The translations under genes were made by a program, and so were the position numbers. A stretch of 64,000 bases of DNA, from positions 1,736,001 to 1,800,000 of the forward strand of contig NZ_CP071870.1 in NCBI RefSeq assembly GCF_017569205.1, written 5' to 3'. Numbering within the stretch: position 1 is the first letter of the stretch; each line of letters starts with the position of its first letter. The stretch is from Propioniciclava sp. MC1595 (GTDB lineage: Bacteria > Actinomycetota > Actinomycetes > Propionibacteriales > Propionibacteriaceae). This document shows positions 1,695 through 42,447 of the stretch, one piece after another. The notes beneath the pieces were generated by a model. The model had not been told where the DNA came from and searched no databases. It saw only the letters and a program-made list of their open reading frames with translations.

Positions 1695-1727
1695 GGTCAT
1701 CCTTCGGGTCCCGGAAAGCGTGGGGCC

Positions 1728-1733
1728 ACCCTA
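1728..1733 (-). promoter_or_regulatory. Putative -10 box of metYX
   Basis: Read on the minus strand this is TAGGGT, a TANNNT actinobacterial -10, about 33 bases upstream of the metY start. It would give a short leader that contains the ribosome site. No clear -35 was identified. Confidence 0.4.
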
Positions 1734-1756
1734 GGGCTTGAGGGGTGGTCCAAGCT

Positions 1757-2326
1757 TCAATCTCGGCTGCCGGTCGACAGGGCGAAGCGGTGCAGCACCT
1801 CGTACCGGTTGCCGCGGTCGCGCAGGTGGCTCTGGATCAGGACCAGCTCCTCGGCGGTCCACCCGTCCGCGTCGAACGTGTCGAGCACGCGCACCAGGCG
1901 GGTGCTGTCGATGGCGCGGTTGGCCCGGGCCAGCGTCAGGTGGGGCACGAACCGCGCCCCGTCCACCCGCACCCCGGCCCGCACGGCGGCGTTGCGCGAG
2001 CGCTCGGCCAGGCTCGTCAGCTCGGACGCCCCCTCGGCCAGGCCGAGCCACAGGACCTTGGTCTCCAGCGGCCAGGGGAACGCGCCTCCCCCGGCCAGCC
2101 GGAGCCGGAAGACCGGCGTCCGGTCGGCTGCTTCGCCGAGCGCCTCGACCAGCGGGTCGAGGGCCCGCTCGGGCACGTCGCCCATGAACGCGGTCGTGAG
2201 GTGCCAGCCCTCGGGTCGGGTCCAGCGCAGCCGTGGTTCGGCGGGCCGGCGCGGGGTGAGGAAGGCGTCCAGCTCCTCCACCAGCTCGGTCGGCGGGACA
2301 AGGGCCGTGAACAGGCGAGCTCCCAT
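1757..2326 (-). CDS. thpR: RNA 2',3'-cyclic phosphodiesterase (2H/LigT family)
   Basis: A 2H phosphoesterase of 189 residues, the family's usual size. The two defining HxTx motifs are present: HLTT near residue 42 and HLTL near residue 127. It begins MGARLFTALVPP. Members hydrolyse 2',3'-cyclic phosphate ends of RNA; the in vivo substrate is unknown. The open frame continues upstream, but I chose the ATG at 2326 because the family begins there and a TACGCT -10 box lies exactly six bases before it, fitting leaderless transcription. It is convergent with nothing and sits between metY and a decayed transporter gene. Confidence 0.88.
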   Translation of the reverse strand: MGARLFTALVPPTELVEELDAFLTPRRPAEPRLRWTRPEGWHLTTAFMGDVPERALDPLVEALGEAADRTPVFRLRLAGGGAFPWPLETKVLWLGLAEGASELTSLAERSRNAAVRAGVRVDGARFVPHLTLARANRAIDSTRLVRVLDTFDADGWTAEELVLIQSHLRDRGNRYEVLHRFALSTGSRD

Positions 2327-2332
2327 GCGCCC

Positions 2333-2338
2333 AGCGTA
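2333..2338 (-). promoter_or_regulatory. Leaderless -10 box of thpR
   Basis: TACGCT on the minus strand, with a six-base spacer to the thpR ATG and no Shine-Dalgarno sequence between. One of a set of similar signals in this window. Confidence 0.45.
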
Positions 2339-3252
2339 CGCAGCGCGGGCACCACCGCCGCAGCCCCCGCCGAGGGTGGCGCGGGCGGCGACGTCGGCGT
2401 GTTCACCTGGTGGGCCGAGGGTTCGGAGAAGGACGGCCTCGCCGAGCTGGGGAAGCTCTTCGTCGCCGAGTACCCGAACGACACGTTCGTCAACCTGGCC
2501 GTCGCCGGCGGCGCGGGCTCGAACGCCAAGGCCAAGCTGGCCGCCGACCTGCAGAACAACAATCCGCCGGAGTCCTTCCAGGGCCACGCCGGTGCGGAGC
2601 TGACGGACCACATCGACGCCGACCAGATCGAGCCCGTCAACGACATCATCGAGGCGCTCGGTGGAGCCTCGGTGTTCCCGCAGAACCTGCTCGACCTCAT
2701 CACGGTCGACGGTGACATCTACTCCGTGTCCTCCAACGTCCACCGCTCGAACGTGGTGTGGGTGAACCCCGAGGTCCTCGCCAAGGCCCAGGTCGCCACC
2801 GAGGCGCCCGCCGACCTCGACGCCTGGATCGCCGACATGGAGAAGCTGAAGGCCGCCGGCGTCGACACCCCGCTGTCGGTCGGCACCGCCGCGTGGACCC
2901 AGCTGCACCTGTTCGAGAGCATCCTGCTCTCCGAGCTCGGCACCGACGAGTACAACAAGCTGTTCACCCCGGGCGCCGCCTGGGACACCGACGCTGTCAA
3001 GTCGACGGTCAGCAAGTACGCCAAGGCCCTGAGCGTCGCCAACACCGGTGGCGCTGACGACTGGCCCGCCGCCACCGTCATGGTCATCGACGGCAAGGCC
3101 GGCTACAACGTCATGGGCGACTGGGCCGTGGCCGAGTTCAACTCCAAGAACAAGACCTACGGCACTGACTACCTCGCGTGGCCGACCCCCGGCACCGACG
3201 GCAGCTGGGCAAGTACTTCATCAGCGGACTGATGAGCGGCTCGGTGAAGTAG
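2339..3252 (+). pseudogene. Decayed sugar ABC-transporter substrate-binding protein
   Basis: The remnant reads GDVGVFTWWAEGSEKDGL, then KLAADLQNNNPPESFQGHAGAE, VDGDIYSVSSNVHR and VIDGKAGYNVMGDW, typical of extracellular solute-binding family 1 proteins. The signal peptide and lipobox are missing; coding sequence begins abruptly next to thpR. After PTPGTDG near 3200 the reading frame breaks, and the family's C-terminal end (LGKYFISGLMSGSVK, then TAG at 3250-3252) follows in another frame, with roughly 100 residues between these parts lost. Both a 5' truncation and an internal deletion are therefore seen. No permease genes remain beside it. Not expected to be functional. Confidence 0.82.
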
Positions 3253-3299
3253 CCGATCGGCGACGGCGTGCCAAGATGGACGCCGACGAAAGGACGGGC

Positions 3300-3764
3300 A
3301 TGAGCCTCGAGGAGAAGCTGCACACCGACATGGTCGCCGCGCTGAAGGCGCGCGACTCCGAGCTGGTCACCACGCTGCGCATGGCGATCGGCGCGCTGAA
3401 GAACGAGAAGGTGGCCGGCAAGTCCGCCCGCGAGCTCACCGAGGCCGACGAGGTCGCGGTGTTGCAGCGCGAGGTGCGCACCCGCAAGGACTCCGCCCAG
3501 GCCTACACCGACGGCAACCGGCCCGAGCTGGCCGCCAAGGAGCTCGCCGAGGCCGACGTGATCGCCCGCTACCTGCCCGCCATGCTGGGCGACGACGAAC
3601 TGGACGCCCTCGTGGCCGAGGAGCTCGCGGCCGCCGAGGCCGCGGCCGGGGAGAAGCCCACGATGCGGCAGATGGGCGCCATCATGAAGGCCGTGAACGC
3701 GCGCGTGGCCGGCCGGGCCGACGGCTCGGCGGTGGCGGCCAAGGTGAAGGCCGCCCTGGCCTGA
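3300..3764 (+). CDS. yqeY: GatB/YqeY domain protein
   Basis: A 154-residue protein of the YqeY family, related to the tRNA-binding tail domain of GatB. It begins MSLEEKLHTDMVAALKARD and shows the family signatures LRMAIGALKNEKVA, AELAEADVIARYLP and GAIMKAVNARVAGRADGS. It may bind tRNA or a tRNA-dependent amidotransferase; its exact role is not established. The ATG at 3300 is preceded by AAAGGA at good spacing, whereas the in-frame ATG at 3276 has no such site. Confidence 0.9.
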   Translation: MSLEEKLHTDMVAALKARDSELVTTLRMAIGALKNEKVAGKSARELTEADEVAVLQREVRTRKDSAQAYTDGNRPELAAKELAEADVIARYLPAMLGDDELDALVAEELAAAEAAAGEKPTMRQMGAIMKAVNARVAGRADGSAVAAKVKAALA

Positions 3765-3824
3765 GCGACCTCTGGGCCGGATCCCTCCTTGACAAGGTGG
3801 GATGCGGCGGGGAGTCTGGCGACC

Positions 3825-3980
3825 ATGAGTGAGAAGCCCATGGACCCCCGTATCAACCCGAACGAGGCCGACGAGGACCTCGACAACACCAACGCGGCGG
3901 AGCGCCGCGGCGACGGTGGCCACCCGGTCAACCCGACCGACGCCGAGGGCGAGCAGCCGATGCCCGACGAGAACTCCTGA
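3825..3980 (+). CDS. Small acidic hypothetical protein
   Basis: A 51-residue, strongly acidic protein (MSEKPMDPRINPNEADEDLD...) with no recognisable domain, rich in Asp, Glu, Asn and Pro and so probably disordered. A GGGGAG site precedes the ATG, and a strong terminator follows the stop within 20 bases, both of which support a real gene. Function unknown. It resembles in composition the acidic protein at 19530-19829, but no clear homology is visible. Confidence 0.6.
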   Translation: MSEKPMDPRINPNEADEDLDNTNAAERRGDGGHPVNPTDAEGEQPMPDENS

Positions 3981-13667: not shown

Positions 13668-14661
13668 CGAGACCGCCCGAGTCCCCCGGGTGGACAAGAT
13701 GACGTACCTCACCCAGCTACGCGGACGCCATGACCTGACACCGGCCGACGTTCGCCTACTCGTGGCCGTCTGGACCTACACCGACGCCTGGGGCCGAAAC
13801 GCGTTCCCCGGGAACAAGAAGCTCGCGGCCGACGTGTGCCTAAGCCCGCGAAACGGTCCGAAGGAGATCACCGCGCGACTCCGCGACCTGGTCGCGCGCG
13901 GCTACCTCGTCGTGACCGCACCCGGCGGTTCCGTCGCCGGCGGTGAACGTCGAGCGACGAACTACGCCTTGGCGCTTCCGCCGGCCACCCGGGGGGCTGA
14001 CACCCCCCGGTCCGACCCGACCACAGGGGGGGCTGAGCCCCCCCTGTCGGGCGACGACGACCGGGGGGGCTGGGACCTCCCGACCGGGGGGGCTGACGCC
14101 TCCCGACCGGGGGGGCTGAGCCCCACCCCATCAAGTCATAGATCAGATCAAGATCATCATCACGCGCGCGAGTTCGACACGGGGCCCCGTGATGATGATG
14201 ATCGAGGGCTCAAAGAACACACCGACGACGTCGGACCCGTCACGGCCGCCGAGGTCGCCGAGATCATCGCCGAAGCCGCTCGGGCCGGGAAGTCGTGGCA
14301 AGCGTCCGGCGTCCGATCGAACGCCTCGACCCTGACCGCCGAGATTGGCCGTGCCGAGGCCGTGCGCCGTCTCCTGGCCGCCGCAGCAGACCCGGCCGCC
14401 CGAACGCCGAGGGTCGCGGGGTTCTCGAAGTACGCCGCGGCGTCCGCCGAGCGCGTCGAGACGGTCGAGGGGCCGCGGGAACCCGCGTGCCGGACGTGTG
14501 GGCTCGTGGAACGTGTCTGCTCCCGCACCCTGGGCAGCGATCACGAGTTCGAGCCGGCCGACGACACCCGCGACGACGTCGAGCCGACACCGACCCGTCG
14601 AGGCGCGGCCGGTGACCCCGACACGCTCGGGAACCTCGTCGAGGGGGTGCTCCGACGATGA
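13654..14661 (+). CDS. Winged-helix replication-type protein of the island
   Basis: 335 residues. The first ~110 form a winged helix-turn-helix (LTPADVRLLVAVWTYTDAWG, NKKLAADVCLSP, ITARLRDLVARGYLVV) like the N-terminal domains of plasmid and phage replication initiators. A Gly/Asp/Pro-rich linker (about 115-175) is encoded by G-rich repeats. The C-terminal part (about 190-310) contains ARAGKSWQASG, AAADPAARTPRV and a CRTC...C...H cluster that probably binds zinc. This C-terminal part is homologous to the whole of the next gene product. The ATG at 13654 was chosen because family homology starts there; the longer frame to 13573 only shadows the previous gene. A role in island replication is inferred. 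Confidence 0.7.
   Translation: MVRDDETARVPRVDKMTYLTQLRGRHDLTPADVRLLVAVWTYTDAWGRNAFPGNKKLAADVCLSPRNGPKEITARLRDLVARGYLVVTAPGGSVAGGERRATNYALALPPATRGADTPRSDPTTGGAEPPLSGDDDRGGWDLPTGGADASRPGGLSPTPSSHRSDQDHHHAREFDTGPRDDDDRGLKEHTDDVGPVTAAEVAEIIAEAARAGKSWQASGVRSNASTLTAEIGRAEAVRRLLAAAADPAARTPRVAGFSKYAAASAERVETVEGPREPACRTCGLVERVCSRTLGSDHEFEPADDTRDDVEPTPTRRGAAGDPDTLGNLVEGVLRR
13991..14163. repeat. Iteron-like G-rich repeats followed by an AT-richer stretch (candidate origin)
   Basis: Five copies of G6-7CTG(A/G) start at 13991, 14026, 14063, 14086 and 14109, spaced 36, 37, 23 and 23 bases at the CTG. The last three sit in a near-exact 23-base unit. Directly after them, about 14128-14163 (ATCAAGTCATAGATCAGATC and on) is the least GC-rich stretch of the island. 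Iterons plus an AT-rich unwinding region inside a rep gene are a common origin layout. It also encodes the linker of the protein above. Confidence 0.5.
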
Positions 14662-27466: not shown

Positions 27467-29065
27467 TTAACTGCCCGCCCGGGCGTCCAGAGCCCGCACT
27501 CCCCCGCCGCGCGTCCCGCCGGCCAGGGTCCGCATGAACACGATCCGCTCGCCGCGGCGTCCGGACAGCTTCGCCCAGTCGTCGGGGTTGGTGGTGTTGG
27601 GCAGGTCCTCGTTCTGCTCGACCTCGGCCCGCACGGCGTCCAGCACGTGACCGCGGCGCACCCCGCGCTCGCCCCCGTCGAGCAGCTCCTTGATGGCGGC
27701 CTTCTTCGCCCGTGAGGCGATGTTGGCCAGCATCGCGCCCGAGGCGAAGTCGCCCACGTGGAGCACCTCGCGGTCGCCGCTGGCGTAGGTGACCTCGACG
27801 AACTCGTTGCGCGGGGTCTCGGCGTACAGGTCGGCCACCGCGTCGGCGATCACGGACGCCCTCAGCGCGGCCACACCGCCTGCCGAGGCCGCCTCGGCCC
27901 CGTTCCACGGCGTGGCGTCGGTGAGGGACAGCCCGAGGATCTCCGCCGCCCCGTCGCGGCTGGGCCGGTCGAGGCGGATCTTCACGTCGAGGCGTCCGGG
28001 GCGCAGGATGGCGGGATCAATCAGGTCCTCGCGGTTGGTCGCGCCGATCACGATGACGTTGGCCAGCGACTCGACGCCGTCGATCTCGGCGAGCAGCTGC
28101 GGCACGATCGTCGACTCGACGTCGGAGCTGACGCCCGAGCCGCGGGTGCGGAACAGCGAGTCCATCTCGTCGAAGAACACGATCACGGGGCGGCCGGCCT
28201 CGGCGACCTCGCGGGCGCGGGCGAAGGTGAGCCGGATCTGGCGCTCGGTCTCGCCGACGTACTTGTTGAGCAGCTCGGGGCCCTTGATGTTCAGGAACGA
28301 CGACCCGGCCGAGTTGGCCACCGCCTTGGCGACCATGGTCTTGCCGCAGCCGGGGGGCCCGTAGAGCAGCACGCCCTTGGGGGCGGCCAGCCCGAACTCG
28401 GTGAACAGGTCCCGGTGCCGGAAGGGCAGCTCGACCGCGTCGCGGACCTGCGCGATCTGGTCGTCGAGCCCGCCGATGTCGGCCCAGCTCACGTCGGGGA
28501 CCTCCTCCAGCGTGAGCTCCTCGACGTCGGTGCGGGCGACCGACGCCCAGGCGACCAGCGCGCGCCGGTCGGCCAGGAGCGACTCGCCCGGCGTGATCTC
28601 GGCGTCGCGCAGGGCGGCGCCCAGCTGGACGACGACCTCCTCGTCATTGGCGCCCGCCACCAAGGCCGACGTGGCGTCGAGGCGCTCGCGCACCCGCACC
28701 ACCTCCCCGGCGGGCCGGTGGTCGGTGACGGCGACGACGACGAGGGCCTCGTTGACCAGGACCCCGGCCCCGACGCCCAGGCGCTCGACGGCGACGACCT
28801 CGGGGGCCACGGCGGCGCGCACGAGGCGTCCGCCGACGTGGACGTCGGCCAGCCCCGCCTCGGGCAGCCCGACCACGATCCCGAACTGCTGCGGCGGCAG
28901 CGCGAGCGCGGCCACCTGCTCCCGCAGGGCGAGGAGCTGGTCGCGGGCCTCCCGCAGGGTGACGTTGAGCTTGTCGTTGTGCTGGGCCAGGGCCCGGGCG
29001 TCCGCCCGCGCCTGCGCGAGCCGCCGTTCGGCGACCTCGGCGCGCAGGGCGACTTCGTCAGTCAT
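27467..29065 (-). CDS. arc: Pup-receptor AAA ATPase (ARC/Mpa)
   Basis: 532 residues: N-terminal coiled coil (about 5-50) that captures Pup, two OB-type domains (about 55-200), then one AAA domain with Walker A GPPGCGKTMVAKA, Walker B VIVFFDEMDSLF and GATNREDLIDPAILRPGR. It unfolds pupylated proteins. The end reads GERIVFMRTLAGG and stops at ARAGS. The GQYL tail, through which Mpa docks to the 20S proteasome, is absent. No prcA, prcB or pafA is seen in the window. It may therefore act without a proteasome, as in corynebacterial ferritin disassembly. Confidence 0.93.
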   Translation of the reverse strand: MTDEVALRAEVAERRLAQARADARALAQHNDKLNVTLREARDQLLALREQVAALALPPQQFGIVVGLPEAGLADVHVGGRLVRAAVAPEVVAVERLGVGAGVLVNEALVVVAVTDHRPAGEVVRVRERLDATSALVAGANDEEVVVQLGAALRDAEITPGESLLADRRALVAWASVARTDVEELTLEEVPDVSWADIGGLDDQIAQVRDAVELPFRHRDLFTEFGLAAPKGVLLYGPPGCGKTMVAKAVANSAGSSFLNIKGPELLNKYVGETERQIRLTFARAREVAEAGRPVIVFFDEMDSLFRTRGSGVSSDVESTIVPQLLAEIDGVESLANVIVIGATNREDLIDPAILRPGRLDVKIRLDRPSRDGAAEILGLSLTDATPWNGAEAASAGGVAALRASVIADAVADLYAETPRNEFVEVTYASGDREVLHVGDFASGAMLANIASRAKKAAIKELLDGGERGVRRGHVLDAVRAEVEQNEDLPNTTNPDDWAKLSGRRGERIVFMRTLAGGTRGGGVRALDARAGS

Positions 29066-29071
29066 GGGGGC

Positions 29072-29077
29072 AGCGTA
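29072..29077 (-). promoter_or_regulatory. Leaderless -10 box of arc (TACGCT)
   Basis: Minus-strand TACGCT six bases before the arc ATG. It lies only 20 bases from the IS110 left end, so any -35 element may partly come from flanking or IS sequence. Confidence 0.45.
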
Positions 29078-29096
29078 GCCATTTCAGTGGCAACTT

Positions 29097-29330
29097 CCCC
29101 GTTACCTTTCTGGTGACCCCGTAGGGCGGGGTTACGGTCGCCGGGCCCGGCATGACTTACTGCCCCTGTCTCACGCATGATCCGGGGGGTGTTGTCACCG
29201 GGCCTGGTGGCGCCAGATGACCGCTGATAGGGACACGGCCTCAACACAGGTCTCTTCGTAACGTGGGTGCCGGCAGCTGACGCATCACCACTCCGACGAC
29301 CGTCGTTTCGATGGAAGGATGGTGGCCGTC
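29097..29330 (+). ncRNA. Predicted bridge RNA region of IS110 copy 1
   Basis: IS110-group elements make a bridge RNA from the noncoding left end that pairs with donor and target DNA. Seen here: a hairpin ACCCCG-TAGGG-CGGGGT at 29116-29132, a CACCGGGCCTGGTG hairpin near 29192, and ATAGGGACAC at 29227-29236, which repeats the right terminus of the IS (30554-30563). That repeat fits a donor-binding guide. The exact RNA ends cannot be set by eye. Confidence 0.5.
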
Positions 29331-30545
29331 ATGCACAACGACCTCGGCTTCGACATCTGGTGCGGGCTCGACGTGGGCAAGCAAGCCCACCATGCCTGCG
29401 CCCTCGACGCCGCCGGCAAGAAGGTGTTCGACAAGCCCTTGCCGCAGGACCAGTCCAAGCTCGAAGACTTGTTCACGAGGCTGTCCGAGCACGGTCGGGT
29501 GTTGGTGATCGTCGACCAGCCCAACACGATCGGCGCGCTGCCCATCGCCGTCGCCCGGTCGATGGGCATCCAGGTCGCCTACCTGCCAGGCCTCGCGATG
29601 CGAAGGGCCGCCGATCTCTATCCGGGCAACGCGAAGACCGACGCGCGCGACGCGTTCGTCATCGCCGACGCCGCTCGAACGATGCCGCACACCCTTCGCC
29701 GGGTCGACCTGGGCGAAGAGACCTTGGCGGAGTTGAAGGTTCTGGTCGGGTTCGATGAGGACCTGGCTGCGGAAGCGACTCGGTTGTCGAACCGGATCCG
29801 GGGACTGCTCACGCAGATCCATCCCGCGCTGGAACGCGTTGTCGGACCCCGATTGGCCACCAGGCAAGGCCTCGCTGTGATCGAGCAGCTCGGCGGACCC
29901 CAAGGCATGACCGCAGCATCGAAGTCCAAGCTGCTGCGGGTCATCACCAAAGCCAACCCGCGTCACGCCCAGAACTTCGCCGACGCCATCACCCAGGCCC
30001 TGTCCGAGCAGACCGTTGTTGTTGCCGGGACTGCCGCGGCCGAACAGGTTCTGCCGAAGCTCGCCGCTTCCCTGCGCCAGACGTTGGACCAGCGCTCCGA
30101 GTTGGCTGCGCAGGTCGAGAAGGTCGTTGATGCTCACCCTCTTGCCGAGGTCCTGACCTCGATGCCAGGCGTCGGGGTCAGGACCGCAGCACGGATCCTG
30201 CTCGACGTTGGCAACGCCTCCTTGTTCCCGACCGCCGGACACCTGGCCGCCTACGCCGGCCTCGCACCCATCACGCACCGCTCCGGAACCAGCATCCGGG
30301 GCGAGTTCCCAGCCAGATCGGGAAACAAGCACCTCAAACGGGCCCTGTTCCTGTCATCGTCCGCCGCGCTCAGATCCGATCCCGTCAGCAGGGCCTACTA
30401 CGACCGGAAACGAGCCCAAGGCAAGAAACACAACGCCGCACTCATCTGCCTCTCCCGGCGCCGAGTCGATGTCCTGTTCGCCATGCTCAGAAACCGCGAG
30501 CCCTACCGGGCCCCCAACCCGACGCCACAACCCCTCGCAGCTTGA
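29331..30545 (+). CDS. IS110-family transposase (DEDD recombinase)
   Basis: 404 residues. N-terminal RuvC-like domain with acidic residues in WCGLDVGK, VLVIVDQP and NAKTDARDAFVIADAA; central coiled region; C-terminal Tnp_20 domain with MPGVGVRTAARIL and the catalytic serine region HRSGTSIRGEF, followed by ARSGNKHLKRALFL. The ATG at 29319 directly abuts its only AAGG; the one at 29331 is better spaced, so I chose it. The frame is intact, so this copy may be active. Confidence 0.93.
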   Translation: MHNDLGFDIWCGLDVGKQAHHACALDAAGKKVFDKPLPQDQSKLEDLFTRLSEHGRVLVIVDQPNTIGALPIAVARSMGIQVAYLPGLAMRRAADLYPGNAKTDARDAFVIADAARTMPHTLRRVDLGEETLAELKVLVGFDEDLAAEATRLSNRIRGLLTQIHPALERVVGPRLATRQGLAVIEQLGGPQGMTAASKSKLLRVITKANPRHAQNFADAITQALSEQTVVVAGTAAAEQVLPKLAASLRQTLDQRSELAAQVEKVVDAHPLAEVLTSMPGVGVRTAARILLDVGNASLFPTAGHLAAYAGLAPITHRSGTSIRGEFPARSGNKHLKRALFLSSSAALRSDPVSRAYYDRKRAQGKKHNAALICLSRRRVDVLFAMLRNREPYRAPNPTPQPLAA

Positions 30546-30569
30546 CGAGAAACATAGGGACACCCCCCA

Positions 30570-39593: not shown

Positions 39594-40998
39594 ATGCGCC
39601 CCGTTACCTTTCTGGTGACCCCGTAGGGCGGGGTTACGGTCGCCGGGCCCGGCATGACTTACTGCCCCTGTCTCACGCATGATCCGGGGGGTGTTGTCAC
39701 CGGGCCTGGTGGCGCCAGATGACCGCTGATAGGGACACGGCCTCAACACAGGTCTCTTCGTAACGTGGGTGCCGGCAGCTGACGCATCACCACTCCGACG
39801 ACCGTCGTTTCGATGGAAGGATGGTGGCCGTCATGCACAACGACCTCGGCTTCGACATCTGGTGCGGGCTCGACGTGGGCAAGCAAGCCCACCATGCCTG
39901 CGCCCTCGACGCCGCCGGCAAGAAGGTGTTCGACAAGCCCTTGCCGCAGGACCAGTCCAAGCTCGAAGACTTGTTCACGAGGCTGTCCGAGCACGGTCGG
40001 GTGTTGGTGATCGTCGACCAGCCCAACACGATCGGCGCGCTGCCCATCGCCGTCGCCCGGTCGATGGGCATCCAGGTCGCCTACCTGCCAGGCCTCGCGA
40101 TGCGAAGGGCCGCCGATCTCTATCCGGGCAACGCGAAGACCGACGCGCGCGACGCGTTCGTCATCGCCGACGCCGCTCGAACGATGCCGCACACCCTTCG
40201 CCGGGTCGACCTGGGCGAAGAGACCTTGGCGGAGTTGAAGGTTCTGGTCGGGTTCGATGAGGACCTGGCTGCGGAAGCGACTCGGTTGTCGAACCGGATC
40301 CGGGGACTGCTCACGCAGATCCATCCCGCGCTGGAACGCGTTGTCGGACCCCGATTGGCCACCAGGCAAGGCCTCGCTGTGATCGAGCAGCTCGGCGGAC
40401 CCCAAGGCATGACCGCAGCATCGAAGTCCAAGCTGCTGCGGGTCATCACCAAAGCCAACCCGCGTCACGCCCAGAACTTCGCCGACGCCATCACCCAGGC
40501 CCTGTCCGAGCAGACCGTTGTTGTTGCCGGGACTGCCGCGGCCGAACAGGTTCTGCCGAAGCTCGCCGCTTCCCTGCGCCAGACGTTGGACCAGCGCTCC
40601 GAGTTGGCTGCGCAGGTCGAGAAGGTTGTTGATGCTCACCCTCTTGCCGAGGTCCTGACCTCGATGCCAGGCGTCGGGGTCAGGACCGCAGCACGGATCC
40701 TGCTCGACGTTGGCGACGCCTCCTTGTTCCCGACCGCCGGACACCTGGCCGCCTACGCCGGCCTCGCACCCGTCACGCACCGCTCCGGAACCAGCATCCG
40801 GGGCGAGTTCCCAGCCAGATCGGGAAACAAGCACCTCAAACGGGCCCTGTTCCTGTCATCGTTCGCCGCGCTCAGATCCGATCCCGTCAGCAGGGCCTAG
40901 TACGACCGGAAACGAGCCCAAGGCAAGAAACACAACGCCGCACTCATCTGCCTCTCCCGGTGAGGTTGACCCCGAATCCCGGACAGGTGGTTGTTTGG

Positions 40999-41892
40999 TC
41001 AGGCGGCTTGGAGGGCCGTCTGGTCGGCCTGTCGGGCCAGGTGGTGTTCGTACTGTAGTGGGCTGAGGTAGCCGATGCTGGAGTGGCGTCGGCGGGCGTT
41101 GTACCAGGCGTCGATCCAGGTGTAGGCGCCGCGGCGGGCGGCGCCGATCGTGGCGAACACGTGCCGGTGGTAGTACTCGTTCTTGAACGTTGACCAGAAC
41201 GATTCGGCGGCCGCGTTATCCCAGCACACCCCGGTGCGTCCCATGGAGCGGAGCAGGTCCAGCTCGCCGCACAGGTCGGCCAGCTGCTGGCTGGTGTACT
41301 GGCAGCCCCGATCGGCGTGGAAGATGACTTTGCCGGGCAACTCGCCGCGTAGGGCGACGGCCTGGCGGAGCGCATCCTCGACCAGGTCGGCCCTGAGGTG
41401 GTCGGCGACGGTGCGGCCCAGGACCCGGCGGGTGTGGCCGTCACGGACGGTGCACAGGTAGGCCCAGCCCTCACCGGTGGCCAGGTAGGTGATGTCGGAG
41501 AACCAGGCGGCATCGCGGCGGCCTTGGTCGAACCGGCGCTTGACCAGGTCGGGTGCCGGGTCGGGGTTCGGGCCGGGCACCGTGGTCGGGGGATGCCAGG
41601 TACGCGGGCTGATCCCGGCTATCTCGGCTTGCCGCATGCATTTCGCGACCGTCTTGACCGACACCGTCTCCCCGGCGTCGCGCAGGTCGTGCAGGATCCT
41701 CGGCGCCCCGTAGGTGCCATCAGAGGCCTTGTGGAACTCCACGATCTTGCTGGTCAGCTCAGCCCGCCGTTGCTCGGCCCGGGTACGCCCGGCCGCTTGG
41801 CGCCGACACCATTCGTAGTAGCGGCGCCGATCAACCTTGAGCAGCCGGCACATCCGGCTGATCGTGTAGTTCGCCTTCTCCGCGTCGATCAC
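40999..41892 (-). CDS. IS3-family transposase OrfB (DDE integrase)
   Basis: 297 residues with an HTH_21 region (YTISRMCRLLKVDRRRYYEW) and an rve integrase core. DDE residues: Asp in AAWFSDITYLATGEG, Asp in VIFHADRGCQYTS, Glu in CWDNAAAESFWSTFKNE. The GTG at 41892 overlaps the OrfA stop (GTGA) with AGGAG upstream, so it may be translated by coupling; the frame also stays open upstream, so a -1 frameshift OrfAB fusion is equally possible, as is usual in the family. Confidence 0.92.
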   Translation of the reverse strand: MIDAEKANYTISRMCRLLKVDRRRYYEWCRRQAAGRTRAEQRRAELTSKIVEFHKASDGTYGAPRILHDLRDAGETVSVKTVAKCMRQAEIAGISPRTWHPPTTVPGPNPDPAPDLVKRRFDQGRRDAAWFSDITYLATGEGWAYLCTVRDGHTRRVLGRTVADHLRADLVEDALRQAVALRGELPGKVIFHADRGCQYTSQQLADLCGELDLLRSMGRTGVCWDNAAAESFWSTFKNEYYHRHVFATIGAARRGAYTWIDAWYNARRRHSSIGYLSPLQYEHHLARQADQTALQAA

Positions 41893-42218
41893 CTCGAAGC
41901 ACTCCTGCCGGGAGTGTTCTTCGCTGCGAAGAAGGCTGCGGCTTTTCCCAGGAACTCGTTGTCCAACCGCAGCTCGGTGTTCTCCCGCCGCAGCCGCTCC
42001 AACTCGGCCCGCTCCGAGGCGTCCAGCGGCGCCTCCGGTGGGGCACCGATCCGGTCGCGCTCCTGCTGGACCCAGCGGCCCAACAGCTGCGCACCCACGT
42101 TGATCTCGCCGGCGACGGTTGCGATCGTCCGGTCGGTGTCGATCACCAGATGCGCGGCCTCCCGCCGATACTCCGGCGTGTACGTCCTTCTCTTCCTCGT
42201 CGATCCCATCGAGGACAT
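41889..42218 (-). CDS. IS3-family transposase OrfA
   Basis: 109 residues: helix-turn-helix (RRTYTPEYRREAAHLVIDTD, TIATVAGEINVGAQLLGRWV) and a leucine-zipper-like coil (RAELERLRRENTELRLDNEF), then LGKAAAFFAAK. It recognises the IS ends. Stop overlaps the OrfB start. Confidence 0.9.
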   Translation of the reverse strand: MSSMGSTRKRRTYTPEYRREAAHLVIDTDRTIATVAGEINVGAQLLGRWVQQERDRIGAPPEAPLDASERAELERLRRENTELRLDNEFLGKAAAFFAAKNTPGRSASR

Positions 42219-42447
42219 CCTCTCCGGCGGTCCCCGACAAGGGAACCCGCCAAGTCGGTGTCCGGGTTACGGGGTCAACCTCACGGCGCCGAGTCGATGT
42301 CCTGTTCGCCATGCTCAGAAACCGCGAGCCCTACCGGGCCCCCAACCCGACGCCAAAACCCCTCGCAGCTTGACGAGAAACATAGGGACACCCCCCACCG
42401 GCGCCGTAACCCCGTTTCCCTCCCCCGGGTCTGGTCAGGAGCACAAC

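Follow-up and report, generated by a model that had tools for sequence, protein, structure and literature searches.

A complete IS110-group insertion sequence of Propioniciclava with a predicted two-loop bridge RNA, and C-tract insertion sites among its relatives

The 64,000-nucleotide stretch of Propioniciclava sp. MC1595 analysed here (contig NZ_CP071870.1, positions 1,736,001 to 1,800,000; the window) contains a complete IS110-type insertion sequence at approximately 29097-30568 (+), and we are highly confident that it is an IS110-group element with its own guide RNA, to be read as a two-loop bridge RNA. The element belongs to a kind that is already known and was recently discovered, the bridge-RNA or seekRNA elements of IS110. 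An earlier note on this DNA had described an IS110 element with an intact transposase at 29097-30569; the element and an intact recombinase gene of the IS110 group are there, but the right end lies at approximately 30568, and the C-runs at the two junctions (29097-29100 and 30563-30568) leave the exact position of each end ambiguous. The parts of the element outside the predicted RNA are:

29097-29106 (+): left terminus, a C-run (left target and core, partly element-borne) followed by the right-donor GTTACC
29319-30545 (+): intact IS110-group recombinase gene, 408 aa; the start codon may sit slightly further downstream
30554-30562 (+): left donor (LD), ATAGGGACA, predicted to be paired by the left donor guide (LDG)
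30563-30568 (+): core (most likely CC) and right-target C-run, with an ambiguous boundary within the run

The element has all testable defining features of the IS110 group and lacks those tested for the IS1111 group and for TIGR-Tas. The recombinase combines a RuvC-like DEDD domain (PF01548, 4.4e-52 in a profile search) with a Tnp domain carrying the conserved Ser (PF02371, 5.5e-22) and scores 231.7 bits against NF033542 'IS110 family RNA-guided transposase' (cut-off 140). The noncoding ends are long on the left (222 nt 5' of the reading frame) and short on the right (23 nt 3' of it), the left end has a predicted RNA structure with two internal loops, and the donor loop is complementary to both joined ends. 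The target loop corresponds to the insertion sites in the C-tracts of relatives and in two retargeted relatives, with complementarity that is partial outside the C-tract and predicted sites that are not unique. The right-end RNA that, along with long subterminal inverted repeats, characterizes the IS1111 group is absent, this end being 23 nt long and the structured RNA lying in the left end, and the score against the TIGR-Tas model NF052498 (55.8 bits) is below the cut-off of 100.

Structural comparisons point in the same direction. Searched as a single protein against solved structures, the recombinase matches IS621 and ISCro4 (2/2), with the match limited to its C-terminal part, and a profile search additionally matches a TIGR-Tas chain (1.4e-4). 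The 11 best Foldseek matches of an AlphaFold model (mean pLDDT 84.6, pTM 0.66) are IS621 and ISCro4 chains, with TM-scores by target length of 0.60-0.66, and TIGR-TasR comes next. In 16 relatives D66, D108, D111 and S322-G323 are invariant and D18 is nearly invariant; judged by motif position, D66, D108 and D111 would correspond to the acidic residues of IS621.

The left noncoding end is predicted to encode the bridge RNA, and the fold that the earlier note had called for was found. It has the order published for IS110-group bridge RNAs, i.e. in the left end a 5' stem-loop, a target loop and a donor loop, as described in the consulted sections of PMC11208160 and PMC11208158. The stems below are from the RNAalifold alignment structure, and the left target guide was placed by the published architecture:

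29113-29135 (+): predicted bridge RNA, 5' stem-loop (helix 1; double changes in 3/3 pairs counted)
29137-29156 (+): 5' strand of the stem of the target-binding loop (helix 2; 16 pairs, 11 with double changes)
29157-29166 (+): left target guide (LTG), TTACTGCCCC
29184-29189 (+): right target guide (RTG), GGGGGG
29194-29211 (+): 3' strand of the stem of the target-binding loop
29210-29224 (+): 5' strand of the stem of the donor-binding loop (helices 3 and 4; 11 pairs, 10 with double changes)
29227-29236 (+): left donor guide (LDG), ATAGGGACAC, with the sense of the element's right end
29258-29263 (+): right donor guide (RDG), GTAACG, reverse complement of the left-end CGTTAC and followed by a conserved UGG
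29267-29283 (+): 3' strand of the stem of the donor-binding loop

The fold was derived from 37 left ends picked from 47 non-redundant rows (of 85), the ten rows left out having long donor-loop hairpins, a deletion or a miscut end or being a near-duplicate of a kept row. RNAalifold returned the 5' hairpin and one stem for each loop, that of the target loop being long; of its 40 pairs, ten lying within the loops were set aside before counting, leaving 30 stem pairs. Over these pairs 94.4% of the cells in the 37 relatives are paired (85.0% in shuffled alignments), 24 pairs have double changes (13.9 in shuffles) and 126 cells are doubly changed (32.3 in shuffles), and none of 500 shuffles equalled the real alignment on any of these three counts, in a comparison in which related sequences can exceed shuffles. 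Sliding the pairing partners gave 31-53% paired cells, a control that favours the real structure given that this was derived from the same alignment. The covariance model built from the alignment scores the window copy at 198.6 bits, the window copy being one of its building rows. A single-sequence fold of the window RNA is weakly better than shuffles (z -1.56), and the conserved UG after the RTG is without an obvious partner. Searches of the window and of 29000-29400 with Rfam gave no matching bridge-RNA family, and the RNA call therefore rests on the model built here and on the published architecture.

The terminal repeats on which the earlier note had based its donor-loop reading are present as it described them: ATAGGGACAC forms the right end at 30554-30563 and recurs at 29227-29236 in the left noncoding end, and CGTTAC at 29100-29105 in the left terminus has its complement GTAACG at 29258-29263. 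The first of these is the longest substring that the right terminus (30546-30563) has in common with the noncoding left side (29107-29318). First-order simulations of the left side gave a match of at least 10 bases in only 15 of 20,000 runs, making it unlikely to be due to chance; the 6-base match has little meaning alone, yet it is conserved. The arrangement is that of the published geometry, in which the LDG has the sense of the right end and the RDG, here 21 nt beyond the LDG, is the reverse complement of the left end, the 3'-side segment of each loop pairing with the top strand according to the sections of PMC11208160 and PMC11208158 that treat the loops.

Across actinobacterial relatives, guides and ends agree more often than in shuffles. 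Counted over 74 non-redundant elements, 59 of them with a recognisable right end, the LDG agrees with its own right end in five bases in 58/59 cases (shuffle mean 35.8, maximum 46 in 10,000), only four variants being possible because the search pattern was restricted to AG[AG]G[AG] on both sides. The RDG matches the left end exactly in 66/74 (shuffle mean 47.2, maximum 57) and mismatches it in 8/74; the row of L050 was cut at the wrong place by the search pattern. Relatedness was allowed for with a recombinase tree of 83 of the 85 elements, with LDG states on the 70 that have both ends. On this tree seven of the eight changes in the right terminus coincide with the same LDG change on the same branch, with no guide-only changes, and six of the seven changes in the left terminus are matched by the RDG, with six further guide-only changes in single elements; the matched changes include back-changes. 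The unmatched right-end change is that of L199, whose right end lies approximately 250 nt farther than in L196 and probably belongs to another element. As judged from sequence comparison, this covariation on the tree is the strongest evidence that the terminal motifs act as guides, and it agrees with the earlier reading that the matches mark the donor loop.

The target loop carries CCCC and GGGGGG, from which C-tract targets are predicted, and most of the relatives listed have C3-C8 and a G-run in this loop. The sites of the nearest relatives fit the prediction: all six reconstructed insertion sites lie in tracts of 4-7 C, and C-runs of at least 4 cover 0.6-4.3% of positions per strand in five empty loci. 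In the empty state the site of L170 is C6 in two relatives (95-96% identity), and three that are more distant have C3-C4 there, the site shared by L174 and L175 is C6 in one relative, that of L177 is C5, C4 and C4 in three relatives, that of L176 is C5 and C4 in two relatives and C4 in a more distant one, and that of L171 is C4 in one relative (78% identity on the left, 90% on the right). In L186 (NZ_CP108665.1:514454-515915, Streptomyces) a full element lies within the C-run left target guide of the bridge-RNA gene of a relic sibling; judged by the sibling guides, among them one with C8, its empty form would be C7. Targets of 7-8 C, as the flanks of filled sites had suggested, were dropped, the empty relatives having mostly 4-6. 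For the window copy an empty site was not found: its left flank was matched in 13/13 same-genus genomes (own included), and in 4 of the twelve others, which were examined, the downstream regions differ. A flank search with L173 returned only its own record and one with L172 two relatives at 74-77%. A cluster of G6-7 / C6-7 tracts in repeated GGGGGGG-CTGA units at 13991-14115 of the window would offer candidate targets.

Changes in the target guides are in part mirrored at the junctions. In L029 (Sciscionella) the RTG is AAAAGG and the right flank CCTTTTT, and in L193 (on a Streptomyces globisporus plasmid) the RTG is AAAAAG and the right flank CCTTTTA; both thus show a matched retargeting of RTG (G6 to A4-5) and flank, and in L193 the LTG stretch TCGCCCCC is also identical to the element's own left flank. 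Ten right ends have a run of under five Cs, and L029 and L193 are the only two of them with an RTG changed to match, the other eight (L013, L025, L031, L033, L044, L056, L100, L177) having a G-rich RTG and a mismatch. In L046 the right guide CAGGGGG and the right flank CCCCCTG fit, and in L028 the RTG is AGGGGG but the flank is CCCCCCC, not CCCCCT, so that the changed base is unmirrored. Of the remaining elements with unusual right guides, L032, L037 and L042 show no recognisable right end within their loci and L036 stops at the end of its contig. On the left side, the length of the C-run in the LTG correlates with that in the left flank (r = 0.63, 85 left flanks, kinship uncorrected, part of the flanking Cs belonging to the element itself), and the base just upstream of the C-run agrees with the LTG in 50/85 (shuffle mean 37.5; kinship uncorrected); upstream of the C-run, the copies in the own genome agree with the LTG in part only. 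Scoring LTG and RTG together along the empty loci of ten filled/empty pairs (1,696-3,966 local positions scanned per locus) ranked the true site 1 to 13, with 2-57 ties. The comparison of insertion sites with the other loop that the earlier note had proposed thus comes out in its favour for the relatives, by a match that, on these scores, is informative but partial and not unique.

Both junctions are C-rich throughout the relatives: the C-run directly before GTTAC has at least three Cs in 82/85 distinct left flanks, and that after ..GGGACA is 5-9 long in 60/70 distinct right ends. An enriched base after the right C-run was considered and dropped, G in 42 of the 69 right ends counted being near the expectation from base composition. 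Taken together, the two junctions contain 3 to 12 Cs more than the empty tract. This variable excess is not predicted by a simple two-base core and may arise by slippage, by recombination in a shifting register, or from a C-run that the circle brings along. From the repeated bases alone the core is ambiguous. A CA core, which was considered first, pairs without mismatch with both the LDG and the RDG, and a junction-like GGGACACGTTACC occurs in L033; CC is preferred because the empty C-tracts have no A at the junction and the right sides of L029 and L193 read CC-TTTT, and on these sequences the core is most likely CC. The right ends of L033 and L031 continue into ACGTTACC and ACGTTCCC, not into AC-runs, much as would be seen if a right end were joined directly to a left end or if the element had inserted beside another left end.

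Three other explanations were weighed against the bridge-RNA reading. The repeated terminal motif could be a binding site for a protein, recombinase or host factor, or a subterminal repeat, as repeated end motifs of mobile elements often are protein sites and the motif columns are highly conserved; we regard this as extremely unlikely in view of the opposite sense of the two motifs, which the bridge-RNA model requires, of their position in an internal loop between covarying stems, and of the joint changes of termini and guides on the tree, back-changes included. More weight, though still little, is due to the idea that the C-runs are merely element sequence and that the first loop of the RNA does not set the choice of target. 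That junction C-runs are longer than the empty tract, by 3 to 12 (C8 on the left and C8 on the right in L171, versus C4 in its relative L233), does imply that many Cs are element-borne, and the eight right ends that depart from a G-rich RTG agree with this idea. The location of six out of six reconstructed sites in 4-7 C, against the small share of positions that C-runs occupy, and the matching right flanks of the changed RTGs of L029 and L193 make it unlikely as an account of target choice.

Damage to the recombinase genes of two of the three copies in this genome would be expected if the element were a dead relic whose RNA features are merely inherited sequence, which we consider very unlikely given the intact reading frame of the window copy and the near-identical copies of the element that occupy unrelated sites in other genomes. 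The three own-genome copies lie at unrelated sites (window 29097, window 39599-42396 and C1:3272781), and they account for all matches in the genome to the RNA model (3) and to PF02371 (3). The long pieces of the other two copies are 99.6% identical to the window copy and their short 3' pieces 97.6% and 100%. Neither of these two copies, one of them in the same window and with a damaged transposase gene, had been mentioned in the earlier note. The parts of the second copy are:

39599-40960 (+): 5' part, with a bridge RNA that fits the model and an in-frame TAG in the recombinase gene
42284-42396 (+): 3' part and right end, separated from the 5' part by a 1.3-kb rve-type insertion sequence at 40961-42283

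The intervening 1.3-kb element has terminal inverted repeats (TGAGGTTGACCCCG / CGGGGTCAACCTCA), an rve-type transposase reading frame and a 3-bp CGG repeat, and sits inside the recombinase gene of the second copy. The third copy is split, at a point approximately 10 bases from that of the second, by 3.6 kb (L009 2635-6232; C1:3274134-3277731) encoding a DcuC-type transporter and an M20 peptidase. It keeps both ends of the insertion sequence and a bridge RNA fitting the model, and could be a cargo-loaded element that is movable in trans. Matches to the element were found in 9/13 genomes of the genus (own included, several partial) and in 62/197 of the family (own included, many short). In L178, L016, L021, L028, L030, L093 and L182 the first recognisable right end is displaced downstream of its usual place by approximately 0.3-1.2 kb; L178, on the Rhodococcus plasmid pRDE02, has an annotated GNAT acetyltransferase in the extra space (2928-3499), and the distant right ends of the other six may belong to another element. 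Where additional DNA separates the recombinase gene from the right end, the relatives concerned may carry cargo naturally. In the window, an AAA ATPase reading frame (27467-29065, -), which we take to resemble a proteasome-associated ATPase, has the beginning of the element approximately 30 bp upstream of its start, and by virtue of this position the element may separate the ATPase gene from its promoter.

The enzyme family and predicted fold, the conserved RNA fold, the covariation of donor guides and ends, the C-tract sites and the two retargetings can all be read, as predictions or patterns, from the sequences compared here; RNA expression, circle formation, strand exchange and the exact core we infer by analogy with published work on IS621 and ISEc21. 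According to the relevant section of PMC11208160, a promoter forms across the joined ends of IS110 circles, and candidate parts of such a promoter are present in the window element:

30542-30547 (+): TTGACG, candidate -35 box of the circle-junction promoter (putative function)
29103-29108 (+): TACCTT, candidate -10 box of the circle-junction promoter, within the left terminus

TTGAC lies 14-15 nt before the end of ..GGGACA in 70/70 element rows with both ends, redundant copies included, and TANNNT occurs at a fixed left-end position in 70/70 two-ended rows, the row-finding pattern having already required ..TTA; with two junction Cs the spacer would be 18-19 nt, which is slightly long. We suggest that the recombinase would excise the element as a circle, that the joined ends would place the right-end TTGACG before the left-end TACCTT and so create a promoter from which the left-end bridge RNA and the recombinase gene could be transcribed, and that strand exchange by the recombinase would take place at the shared core, most likely CC.

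The element resembles IS621, as far as the consulted parts of PMC11208160 and PMC11208158 describe it, in having a left-end RNA with a 5' stem-loop followed by target and donor loops, in the sense of the LDG relative to the right end and the complementarity of the RDG to the left end (PMC11208160), in its PF01548 and PF02371 enzyme with a matching predicted fold, and in the promoter parts across the joined ends. It differs in its low sequence similarity, in its apparent CC core and C-tract target, as opposed to the CT core and REP element target reported for IS621, and apparently in having Asp66 (assigned by motif position, not by residue-by-residue alignment) where IS621 has Glu as second acidic residue. 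For ISEc21 and the seekRNA elements, target matching is treated in the part of PMC11187229 consulted; the window element adds donor-guide covariation and has a different target. ISRhosp7, an IS110-like element of Rhodococcus jostii RHA1 pRHL2 (L175), has 69.0% DNA identity over 98% of the element; its loops and ends are the same, and the empty relative of its site contains a C6 tract. It differs in genus, in site and slightly in its guides. The same part of PMC11187229 states that more than 30% of ISfinder entries allowed no logo to be made and that target bases may be counted into recorded ends, an effect that C-run ends would cause, and an excerpt of PMC12500396 allows that the estimated length of a Kocuria IS110 element might include the target site. 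In the literature searched by title and abstract start, we found no C-tract-targeting IS110 elements, which may nevertheless be in print, nor a homopolymeric clade-wide target guide, variable C-runs or insertion into a guide. What is new here is modest: a homopolymer target guide common to a clade, variable C-runs at the junctions, and self-targeting of the guide.

Based on these comparisons, we tentatively suggest, as a possibility that we hold at somewhat short of even chances, that an actinobacterial clade of IS110 elements combines a homopolymer (C-run) target guide with a C-run at its own junction. With C-runs in both places recombination would not be fixed to one register, each move could lengthen the C-tracts at the junctions, and the guide-coding DNA would itself be a target, so that copies could knock out each other's guide RNA; occasionally, the guide would switch to a C/T boundary with matching sites. 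The element and its relatives provide an independent, evolution-based check of the pairing rules of bridge RNAs in actinobacteria, far from IS621, and in L029 and L193 guides retargeted in nature (G6 to A4-5) stand beside flanks that match them. A bridge recombinase specific for C-tracts would represent a testable low-specificity extreme of the bridge-RNA system.
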